From assembly GCA_007130045.1 (NCBI GenBank), contig SLTG01000125.1, forward strand, positions 1-42,623: 42,623 nucleotides of DNA, read 5' to 3'. Below are positions 11,564 through 35,149 of the stretch, one piece after another. The stretch's first letter is position 1, and each line of letters begins with the position of its first letter. The notes under the pieces were generated by a model. The model made no database searches, was not told the DNA's origin, and saw only the letters and a program-made list of their open reading frames with translations. This DNA comes from Opitutales bacterium (lineage in GTDB: Bacteria; Verrucomicrobiota; Verrucomicrobiia; Opitutales; T3Sed10-336). The position numbers and the translations under genes are program-made.

Positions 11564-12724
11564 TCAATTCTCAAGGAGTCCGCGAAGGTACGCGGCAGGT
11601 TCGAAATTCTCGATCAAAATCTCCGTCGCGCCATTTCGATACATACGCGCCTGCGGGACAGCTATTTCCGGGGTCTTGGCCGGCGAATAAAGTATGTCGT
11701 CGTGGGTGGCATGCGAAGCTTCACTGAAAAGGTCGGGCGTCAAATGCCCCCCCAGGTGATCGCTTCTCCCCGTCGCAACGTGTAGAGTTCCCAAAACCTT
11801 TTCGTCTTGAATGTCCTCTCCGGAAACCGGCAGGACCTGCGTGCCGAACCCAAGCTCGCCGAGCTCCCCGGTAACCGGATCGCTCTTGAGTTTACGGTTG
11901 TGCTCTTCGATCATCGCCGGGTCACCGGAAATCAAAAGCGCTTCCTGAATCCGTCCCTTGGCCACCTTCATGAGACCGAGCGTGCCGTCCTTGTATTTCA
12001 TGGGAAACGCGCCTTCCGCCCCTGTCGGAACAAAATAAACCTCCCCGGCGGGAAGATTGGCCACGTCCGGTCCTCCCCGGCAAAGTCCGTGGCTCTTCTG
12101 TGCTTCCTGTCCTCCGAGTTCGAGACGTAACGTATGGAGATCATCTCTGACCTTGAAATCGATCTCAACCGCATCGGCCCCGCTCATTCCCGCACGCAGC
12201 TTTTCCGCGTCACGGCTCACCTCCTCGTAGTTCACCGCCAGACCGCTGTTGATAATGATGTCATTGAGACCGTGAAGCGTCGCCCCGCGAAACCCATACT
12301 TCTTCGCAAACGCCGTCAACGGCGCTGTCGCCGAATACGTGGAGATGCAGAGGATCAGGTCGTAGTTGGGATACACGTCTTTTTCCAGGCTGAGCTCCCG
12401 GCCCTCGGAATCCACCGCCCGGTCGGGAAGATCGAGGTTGCTGCCGCCGGTCACCTCGTAGGCAAAAATATCGCCGCCTTTGAGCCCGAGTTCGTCGGAA
12501 ACCCCTTCCCGCAAACCTTTGTAGAAAACGTCATGGGCGTGCTTCTGCACCGTGAGCGACGAATCCGATAGAAAACCGAAATCCCGTATCCGCCGCGGAT
12601 CGTCCAGGTCAATGAGAATTGCCACGCGTTCTCCCCCTTTGGGCGCGAACACCGTCTGAAGCAATCGCGACAGGCTGAACGGAGGAAAGTCCGACGTGGA
12701 CGTGGTCGAAGTCTGAATACTCAT
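11564..12724 (-). CDS. M29-type metal-dependent aminopeptidase
   Basis: A 386-residue protein resembling peptidase family M29 (aminopeptidase T, AmpS). It would remove N-terminal residues from peptides in the cytoplasm. M29 metal and catalytic residues can be placed as Glu228 in NLPAGEVYFVPTG, Glu290 in GELGFGTQ, Glu308 in QDEKVLG, His315 in GTLHVATG, and His341-x-Asp343 in THDDILY. The N-terminal half has the nucleotide-like fold start RVAILIDLDD and the segment KYGFRGATLHGLNDIIINSG. No signal peptide is seen. Similarity is clear in the C-terminal half and weaker in the N-terminal half. It is preceded by a 514-base noncoding stretch, so it probably has its own promoter. Confidence 0.75.
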   Translation of the reverse strand: MSIQTSTTSTSDFPPFSLSRLLQTVFAPKGGERVAILIDLDDPRRIRDFGFLSDSSLTVQKHAHDVFYKGLREGVSDELGLKGGDIFAYEVTGGSNLDLPDRAVDSEGRELSLEKDVYPNYDLILCISTYSATAPLTAFAKKYGFRGATLHGLNDIIINSGLAVNYEEVSRDAEKLRAGMSGADAVEIDFKVRDDLHTLRLELGGQEAQKSHGLCRGGPDVANLPAGEVYFVPTGAEGAFPMKYKDGTLGLMKVAKGRIQEALLISGDPAMIEEHNRKLKSDPVTGELGELGFGTQVLPVSGEDIQDEKVLGTLHVATGRSDHLGGHLTPDLFSEASHATHDDILYSPAKTPEIAVPQARMYRNGATEILIENFEPAAYLRGLLEN

Positions 12725-13055: not shown

Positions 13056-13099
13056 AAAACAAAAAATGGGTGGACCGCCTACCCCTAAACGGTCCACCC
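13056..13099 (-). terminator. Strong Rho-independent terminator
   Basis: On the minus strand GGGTGGACCG and CGGTCCACCC form a perfect 10-base stem (plus-strand arms 13068-13077 and 13090-13099) with a 12-base loop. It is followed by A, six T, G and four T. It would end the candidate small RNA or the transcript of the PAS-PP2C gene. Confidence 0.85.
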
Positions 13100-13156
13100 T
13101 TGCTTTCTTAGTTACCCCAAACCTCCGCTATGCGGAGGAAAGTCTTGAGTTTCTAA
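13058..13156 (-). ncRNA. Candidate small RNA of about 100 nt
   Basis: The minus strand shows a complete small transcription unit in noncoding DNA. There is a promoter (-35 at 13192-13187, -10 at 13168-13163), a predicted start near 13156, a hairpin CCTCCGC-ATA-GCGGAGG (13138-13122), a single-stranded linker, and the 10-base terminator hairpin with U-tract. The motif GTTT(A)GGGGTA occurs twice, once in the linker after the first hairpin and once in the terminator loop. It matches no riboswitch or known RNA family I can recall. It could also be the 3' UTR of the PAS-PP2C gene, whose stop is 82 bases upstream of the predicted start. Confidence 0.5.
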
Positions 13157-13162
13157 TTACCT

Positions 13163-13192
13163 ATTAGATACACCTCTTTCCCCCGGATTCAA
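13163..13192 (-). promoter_or_regulatory. Predicted sigma-70 promoter for the candidate small RNA
   Basis: On the minus strand TTGAAT and TCTAAT (5 of 6 matches to the -10 consensus) are separated by 18 bases, next to an A/T-rich stretch upstream that resembles an UP element. No coding sequence starts downstream for more than 400 bases. Confidence 0.5.
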
Positions 13193-13238: not shown

Positions 13239-14480
13239 TCACCCCTCCGACTCCACGCATTCAACGGCAACGATACAGACGTCGTCCGTAAAATCGCTTG
13301 AATCGGCATGGCGCTTGGCCGCACCCGTCACCCGTTCGATGAGGTTCTTCGAATCCGATGCCAATCCCTTCCGCAGTTCCTCCTGGAGCCGGTCCTCTCC
13401 AAACGCCTCCCCGCTGCTGTTTTCCACCTCGAATAGACCGTCGGTGAACAGCACGGCCATATCACCGTTTCCGAATGGCTCAGTCGCGCTCGAATACGCG
13501 AACGCATCAATCAATCCCAGGGCGGGTTCCGGATCGGCCGAGGGATGAGCGATTCGACTGACCTCCCCCGAACCCCGGCGAAGCACGAAGGGCAACGGGT
13601 GTCCGGCATTGGCGTACACTATCTCCCCTTTTGTCAGATCCGCCAACCCGTAAAACGCCGTCACGAACATCGGCGCATCCGCCTGGCGCAGCACGGGCAA
13701 CAACCCGCGATTGATCCCGTCCAGAAAGGCCCCCGGATGCCGGGACAACGTCATGATCTCCCCAATCAGCCCGCGCAGAAACGCAGTAATCAACGCGGCC
13801 CGAACTCCGTGCCCCATCACATCGCACACCAGAATTCCCGCCTGACTGTTGGAAACACGAAAAATCTCGAAAAAATCCCCGGCAAGCGTGGAGACCGGAA
13901 AGTAGCAATGATTGAAACGAAGCCGATGCCCCGACAGGACATCCTTCGGCGGCAAATCGGGATACTGAAGGGTTAGAAACGACTGTTGAACCTCATACGC
14001 CATCTTCAAGTCCGCCTGCATCTCCGCATTCTTCCTGAGAAGCTTCTCTTCCGCACGCTTGCGGTCGCTGATGTCACGGGAGATGCCCACCGTGCCGATA
14101 ATCGACCCTTCCGGATCCCGCAGCGGAACTTTCGTAACACTGACCCACAAATCAGTCCCGCCGGAAAGGACGAGCTTTCTCTCCTTTCCGACCATCGGCA
14201 TTCCCGTACGGATGATCTCCGACTCCTCAACCTGCGTCTCTCGCGCGTATGATTCGGTAAAAAAGTCGAAATCCGTCTTGCCGATCGCCTCGTCGGGACT
14301 GTTCAGTCCGAACTGTGCAACCTGCGCCTTACCGATCCGGATAAACCTCCCCTCCAAGTCCTTAAAGAAGATCTTGTCCGGCATGGCGTTCATCAACTGG
14401 TCGAACATCGACCGCTCCCGGCGCAGTTCCTCCACTGCCCGTCGCTCGTCGTCACGCAAATATTTGACCTGTGAATCCAT
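13239..14480 (-). CDS. PAS domain-containing PP2C (SpoIIE/RsbU-type) serine phosphatase
   Basis: A 413-residue cytoplasmic signalling protein. A short coiled-coil start (1-25) is followed by a PAS domain at about 25-145, with the typical end GTVGISRDISDRKRAEEKL. A helical linker then leads to a PP2C-like phosphatase domain at about 185-410. Metal-binding aspartates are present at Asp202 (LAGDFFE), Asp220 in VCDVMGHG, Asp347 in FTDGLFE, and Asp399/400 in FTDDVCI. Such proteins usually dephosphorylate anti-sigma-factor antagonists in response to a signal sensed by the PAS domain. No anti-sigma kinase or antagonist is nearby, so the target is unknown. The gene stands alone. Confidence 0.9.
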   Translation of the reverse strand: MDSQVKYLRDDERRAVEELRRERSMFDQLMNAMPDKIFFKDLEGRFIRIGKAQVAQFGLNSPDEAIGKTDFDFFTESYARETQVEESEIIRTGMPMVGKERKLVLSGGTDLWVSVTKVPLRDPEGSIIGTVGISRDISDRKRAEEKLLRKNAEMQADLKMAYEVQQSFLTLQYPDLPPKDVLSGHRLRFNHCYFPVSTLAGDFFEIFRVSNSQAGILVCDVMGHGVRAALITAFLRGLIGEIMTLSRHPGAFLDGINRGLLPVLRQADAPMFVTAFYGLADLTKGEIVYANAGHPLPFVLRRGSGEVSRIAHPSADPEPALGLIDAFAYSSATEPFGNGDMAVLFTDGLFEVENSSGEAFGEDRLQEELRKGLASDSKNLIERVTGAAKRHADSSDFTDDVCIVAVECVESEG

Positions 14481-15714: not shown

Positions 15715-15787
15715 TGGGCCCTGTCGGATTCGAACCGACGACCAAAGGATTATGAGTCCTCTGCTCTAACCGCTGAGCTAAGAGCCC
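15715..15787 (-). tRNA. tRNA-Ile(CAU), lysidine type
   Basis: A full cloverleaf of 73 bases is present: a 7-base acceptor stem (GGGCTCT/AGGGCCC), a D arm beginning TAGCTCAGCGGTTA, an anticodon stem GAGGA/TCCTT with loop CTCATAA (anticodon CAT), and a T arm GTCGG-TTCGAAT-CCGAC. The arms match the minor isoleucine tRNA of E. coli much better than either methionine tRNA. The C34 of this tRNA is normally changed to lysidine by TilS so that it reads AUA. The CCA end is not fully encoded (CCG follows). Confidence 0.93.
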
Positions 15788-31543: not shown

Positions 31544-31621
31544 GTCCCCTTCGTCTAGCCCGGCCCAGGACACCAGGTTTTCATCCTGGCGACAGGGGTT
31601 CGAATCCCCTAGGGGACGCCA
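31544..31621 (+). tRNA. tRNA-Glu(UUC)
   Basis: A complete cloverleaf: acceptor GTCCCCT/AGGGGAC, D stem GTCT/GGAC, anticodon stem CCAGG/CCTGG with loop TTTTCAT (anticodon TTC), T arm AGGGG-TTCGAAT-CCCCT, discriminator G and an encoded CCA. The D loop is C-rich and slightly large. Confidence 0.96.
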
Positions 31622-35067: not shown

Positions 35068-35149
35068 GCTCAGGTGGTGGAATTGGTAGACACGTACGCT
35101 TGAGGGGCGTATGCCGAAAGGTGTAGGGGTTCGAGTCCCCTCCTGAGCA
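35068..35149 (+). tRNA. tRNA-Leu(GAG)
   Basis: A class II tRNA: acceptor GCTCAGG/CCTGAGC, D arm with GGTGGAATTGGTAGACAC, anticodon stem TACGC/GCGTA with loop TTGAGGG (anticodon GAG), a long variable arm around TGCCGAAAGGTG, and T arm AGGGG-TTCGAGT-CCCCT. Discriminator A as expected for leucine. CCA is not encoded (CCC follows). Confidence 0.95.

Follow-up and report, generated by a model that had tools for sequence, protein, structure and literature searches.

The analysed stretch of DNA, referred to here as the window, is 42,623 nt long and corresponds to positions 1 to 42,623 (forward strand) of contig SLTG01000125.1 from an Opitutales bacterium (GCA_007130045.1). On its minus strand, a predicted small RNA is flanked by two genes that are both co-directional with it (Table 1). 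One of these encodes a PAS/SpoIIE-type phosphatase, in agreement with the initial annotation. The other encodes a 386-aa protein that had been taken for an M29 aminopeptidase; it gave no Pfam, NCBIfam or PDB match at the thresholds used. Three tRNA genes were also located in the window.

Table 1. Features of the small-RNA locus and tRNA genes of the window
Feature	Position	Strand	Evidence or remark
-35-like hexamer, TTGAAT	13187..13192	-	Sequence; TTGCAA at comparable distance in related copies L033 and L034; modest consensus match
-10-like TATCTAAT, hexamer TCTAAT at 13168-13163	13163..13170	-	Sequence; TGATCTA similarly placed in L033 and L034
Predicted small RNA, about 90-95 nt	13061..13156	-	5' end inferred from the -10; similarity to other copies
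Hairpin 1, 7 bp, ATA loop, CCTCCGC-ATA-GCGGAGG	13122..13138	-	Covariation in 94 copies
A-rich linker UUUGGGGUAACUAAGAAAGCAA	13100..13121	-	Near-identical in the window's family and Opitutaceae, variable elsewhere
Motif copy 1, GGGGUAA, within the linker	13112..13118	-	GGGGTAA in at least 84 of 94 copies
Terminator hairpin, 10 bp and 3 inner pairs, apical AGGGGU	13068..13099	-	Compensatory change in 12 of 13 pairs
Motif copy 2, AGGGGU, terminator loop	13081..13086	-	GGGGT in 93 of 94 copies
U-tract	13061..13066	-	Sequence
PAS/SpoIIE-type phosphatase gene	13239-14480	-	Pfam
Gene for 386-aa protein	11564-12724	-	Neighbour of the RNA locus
tRNA gene	15715-15787	-	
tRNA gene	31544-31618	+	
tRNA gene	35068-35149	+	

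The elements described in the initial annotation were all found on the minus strand where it had placed them. The TTGAAT (13192-13187) and TCTAAT (13168-13163) hexamers are separated by an 18-nt spacer, and a comparable promoter, TTGCAA...TGATCTA, lies at a similar distance from L033 and L034, the nearest relatives of the window copy. The window-copy promoter is a modest match that falls below the consensus rule of the promoter scanner and is absent from its list. The 7-bp hairpin with an ATA loop (13138-13122) is followed by the linker and by a perfect 10-bp terminator stem formed by GGGTGGACCG (13099-13090) and CGGTCCACCC (13077-13068), after which come an A and six T residues. In the window copy, GTTTGGGGTA runs across the boundary between hairpin 1 and the linker, and GTTTAGGGGTA is located in the terminator arm and loop. 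The terminator was the strongest terminator-like site within its 6 kb. The fold of the window copy reached -43.5 kcal/mol compared to -24.2 ± 3.1 kcal/mol for shuffled sequences (z = -6.15), and none of 200 shuffles was as good. In the minimum free energy fold, the leader can pair with part of motif copy 1.

In a DNA search of relatives, most genomes of the window's family proved to contain several copies. Similarity of the window copy to all other copies extended over about 13148-13061, and covariance model R1 matched 13144-13060; the similarity is limited to the transcribed body and stops where the promoter would start. The genome of the window contains five confident copies, namely the window copy and four more, and a sixth match (C122:42667) was weak and doubtful. 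The small-RNA unit first proposed for this locus is supported, but it is not a singleton: it is one of about five copies belonging to an order-wide family. With a first covariance model, built from 12 copies, the RNA was detected in 79 of the 132 Opitutales genomes sampled. Most genomes of the window's family have 4-6 copies and those of Opitutaceae 1-7, some families of the order carry tandem pairs, and many others have a single copy. Searches with a second model, built from 94 copies, covered 188 genomes at class level and 289 at phylum level and gave matches in 32 and 42 genomes, respectively, all within Opitutales. A pattern search of named genomes gave matches in Opitutaceae, Pelagicoccus, Puniceicoccaceae, Ereboglobus and many Opitutia MAGs. 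Three candidates from outside the order were rejected. L206 (LBRC01000022.1, a Parcubacteria bin) carries a genuine Opitutaceae-type RNA, but its contig looks chimeric; the copy sits at an apparent junction between an AT-rich left part and a GC-rich right part. L213 (Armatimonadota) and L218 (Paenibacillus) were without the structure and were regarded as chance matches.

In Rfam 15 (4227 families), no covariance model reached its gathering score on this RNA when the whole window was scanned, or on 12 divergent members, in line with the initial annotation. When the flagged region was searched at E values up to 10, nothing exceeded the cut-off. The sequence almost certainly represents a real RNA family, and it is a new family of a known kind, in which several homologous stand-alone RNA genes are present per genome.

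The structure was evaluated in two alignments. In a 12-copy MAFFT alignment, which is independent of the model fit, 99.6% of cells were paired and six of 20 pairs changed on both sides, which was equalled by none of 500 shuffles. In the 94-copy alignment, which leans towards the model because it was fitted to it, 96.5% of cells were paired and 19 of 20 pairs showed compensatory change (355 cells versus 84 in shuffles), with a covariation score of 0.546 compared to at most 0.087 when slid. Three inner terminator pairs are also kept, two of them covarying, leaving a hexaloop that is mostly AGGGGU. The repetition of a G-rich motif in the linker and terminator loop, also pointed out in the initial annotation, was confirmed, and both copies are kept in relatives. 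The members were picked by a motif-aware model, but the contrast between the motifs (Table 1) and the freely varying stems is nevertheless large. The covarying stems and the two near-fixed GGGGU motifs point to a structure under selection. In L033 (2092-2126, plus strand), a second terminator-type hairpin directly follows the RNA gene and has the same CTTAGGGGTAGG loop, making a third display of the motif.

Promoter-like sequences upstream of the copies fell into a sigma-70-like class, to which the window copy belongs, and two ECF-like classes. Among 164 distinct copy regions, TTGAC was present upstream of 89 (12.3 ± 3.3 in shuffles); its positions were concentrated at a single distance, and A and T tracts lay above it. 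GAAMM-N15..17-CGTC was found upstream of 13 copies, with 0.2 expected. These different promoter types suggest that several signals feed one shared regulatory RNA. The RNA promoters of L101, L106 and L141, all from a single family of the order, contain a near-perfect inverted repeat, GTTGCTAAnTTAGCAAC, between their -35 and -10 elements, in the position of a putative repressor operator.

The two ECF-like motifs were also searched as patterns. Because the patterns were written from RNA promoters, the matches at RNA genes arise by construction, and the independent result is the remaining matches. Motif A (TGGAACT-N15-TTWCYWA) gave 6 matches in nine genomes compared to 1 for the reversed control; five were upstream of RNA copies, including one in the genome of the window (C34), and the sixth preceded, by 32 nt, a gene whose product has an apparent signal peptide. 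Motif B (TGAAACnTTT-N12-CGTC) gave 8 matches in eleven Opitutaceae genomes compared to 1 for the reversed control. Two of these were upstream of RNA copies, and the other six were all 11-68 nt before the starts of exported-protein genes. Their products are GspG (two genomes), a Tsp/S41 protease, a DUF3016 protein and two further proteins with apparent signal peptides, such peptides being called by eye throughout. Such a gene set is what one would expect of an ECF regulon for the envelope or secretion, and the loci L327, L329, L330, L331, L332 and L334 form a candidate envelope regulon. A predicted ECF-type promoter shared with envelope genes was found for some sibling copies, the window copy not being among them.

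Candidate partners and targets were searched among relatives. Hfq was detected in none of 40 genomes, although the positive controls were detected, and it was rejected as a partner on this basis. CsrA was present in 10 of 40 genomes of the order and absent from the genome of the window and from all relatives of its family, so that a CsrA sponge was also rejected. RRM proteins were encoded in 33 of 40 genomes, but their presence does not strictly track that of the RNA. After removal of the RNA genes themselves, TTACCCCAA sites up to 22 nt before an ATG were about 1.7-fold more frequent than the reversed pattern in 32 genomes, an excess that possibly reflects composition. The same search revealed no recurrent target gene. 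Sites at plausible starts tend to belong to genes for membrane or exported proteins, though in numbers too small to carry weight.

Sequence comparison establishes the family, its structure and near-invariant motifs, its copy number, the promoter-like elements and the occurrence of one ECF-like motif at both RNA copies and exported-protein genes. That the copies are transcribed and pair in trans with targets, and that particular sigma factors and an RRM partner are involved, is inferred. The balance tips slightly towards trans-acting sRNAs that form a sibling family, with part of the copies belonging to an envelope regulon. Each copy would be transcribed from its own promoter, end at its own intrinsic terminator and display the G-rich motif twice, as GGGGUAA in the linker and AGGGGU in the terminator loop. 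The RNA would most likely act in trans: the motif would pair with ACCCC-type mRNA sites, probably close to where genes for envelope or exported proteins begin, and this pairing would alter translation or stability of the target without Hfq, perhaps with an RRM-domain protein. The sigma factors in control would differ among the siblings: the window copy and some others would use sigma-70-like promoters, and further copies would use ECF-type promoters in common with exported-protein genes, forming a noncoding arm of the envelope regulon. A wider proposal is put forward tentatively, namely an undescribed order-wide, Hfq-independent regulatory RNA system in Verrucomicrobiota whose duplicated copies have each been rewired to a different sigma factor and whose frozen GGGGUA, shown twice including in the terminator loop, is read by an RRM protein.

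The closest analogues are RybB/MicA, Yfr2 and FopS, each of which has part of this design. RybB and MicA are Hfq-dependent and mutually unrelated, whereas the Opitutales RNA is one body on several promoter classes and Hfq was not found. They resemble it in being sRNAs on an ECF-type promoter common to envelope-protein genes (PMC1804206). Yfr2 is likewise clade-wide, with multiple copies at unconserved loci and a fixed motif (PMC6778093), but the motif and the phylum are different, the Opitutales RNA keeps one ancestral syntenic locus per lineage, and it has no Rfam match. In Bacteroides, the FopS sibling sRNAs base-pair close to start codons and are associated with RbpB, an RRM protein (PMC11697453). 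Paralogous short multi-copy sRNAs, a common conserved unpaired motif, an intrinsic terminator and the presence of an RRM protein are common to both systems (PMC11697453); Hfq was not detected in the 40 Opitutales relatives. FopS itself has a single-stranded 5' stretch and a terminator, a seed at the 5' end and copies on the same promoter class (PMC11697453), whereas the Opitutales RNA has two covarying hairpins, a G-rich motif that occurs twice, including in the terminator loop, and several promoter classes. No match of the Opitutales RNA to the FopS family was obtained in Rfam 15, which holds only if FopS is in that release. By analogy, base pairing via GGGGUAA is the favoured mode of action.

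A search of the open-access literature found no description of a trans-acting sRNA in Opitutales, which, together with the negative Hfq result, gives the family its significance. Judged by the predicted promoters, duplication would here have placed a single sRNA body under the control of several sigma factors, a naturally occurring example of such wiring. Being strongly conserved and present in several copies, with an exact motif and more than one promoter class, the RNA also provides a probe (e.g., to UUUUGGGGUAACUAAGAAAGCA), a pull-down bait and a covariance model for the whole order.

The main rival to base pairing is protein titration, in which the two GGGGU(A) motifs would bind an RNA-binding protein, such as an RRM protein, and the RNAs would act as its sponge. 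CsrB/RsmZ-type RNAs titrate CsrA and similarly repeat a short G-rich motif in loop and linker. The display of the same short motif both in an apical loop and in an unpaired stretch, the multi-copy nature of the RNA, the L033 copy with a third motif-bearing hairpin, the common occurrence of RRM proteins and the weak target-site signal are all consistent with titration. The Opitutales motif, however, is GGGGU(A) rather than GGA, each RNA offers two sites only, CsrA itself is missing from the window's family and the RRM protein is a candidate only. We regard titration as possible but somewhat improbable. It is unlikely that the motif pairs mainly with another small RNA bearing ACCCC-type sites, although cyanobacterial multi-copy RNAs with a fixed repeated motif do so, as Yfr2 with Yfr1/Yfr10 (PMC6778093).

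Genomic contexts argue for an independent gene over a role as an untranslated region. The neighbours of the copies differ both within one genome and across lineages. In three families the RNA occupies a common site, flanked by a divergent GcvT-domain gene and a DAHP synthase gene; the syntenic copy in the genome of the window is C31:12892 (L032), which adjoins the DAHP synthase gene, and not the window copy. In other lineages, the RNA adjoins a UvrB/C-motif gene, a DciA gene or others. The window copy is a lineage-specific paralogue, and a synteny-based test on the spacer between its two flanking genes would therefore fail; covariation, which the initial annotation had proposed to test, was obtained across copies, but that spacer was the wrong comparison. 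The RNA could be seen as no more than a 3' UTR with terminator belonging to the PAS-phosphatase gene, or else as a cis leader of the downstream gene, since it is co-directional with both neighbours and syntenic copies precede the DAHP synthase gene. This is very unlikely because copies adjoin unrelated genes and have their own promoter-like elements close upstream, in keeping with the stand-alone unit originally proposed. The RNA is an independent gene with its own predicted promoter and intrinsic terminator. Least probable of all is a functionless dispersed repeat of mobile origin (MITE- or REP-like), which would account for the several dispersed copies per genome but not for single, syntenic copies in many families or for the compensatory evolution of the stems. 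A phage or plasmid origin was rejected, as the phages and plasmids searched gave no match to the RNA and two pattern matches on viral contigs were without the hairpins. In Opitutaceae, a PIN-PhoH (RNase/ATPase) gene is found downstream of the ECF-class copies L120, L122 and L051, in the same orientation.
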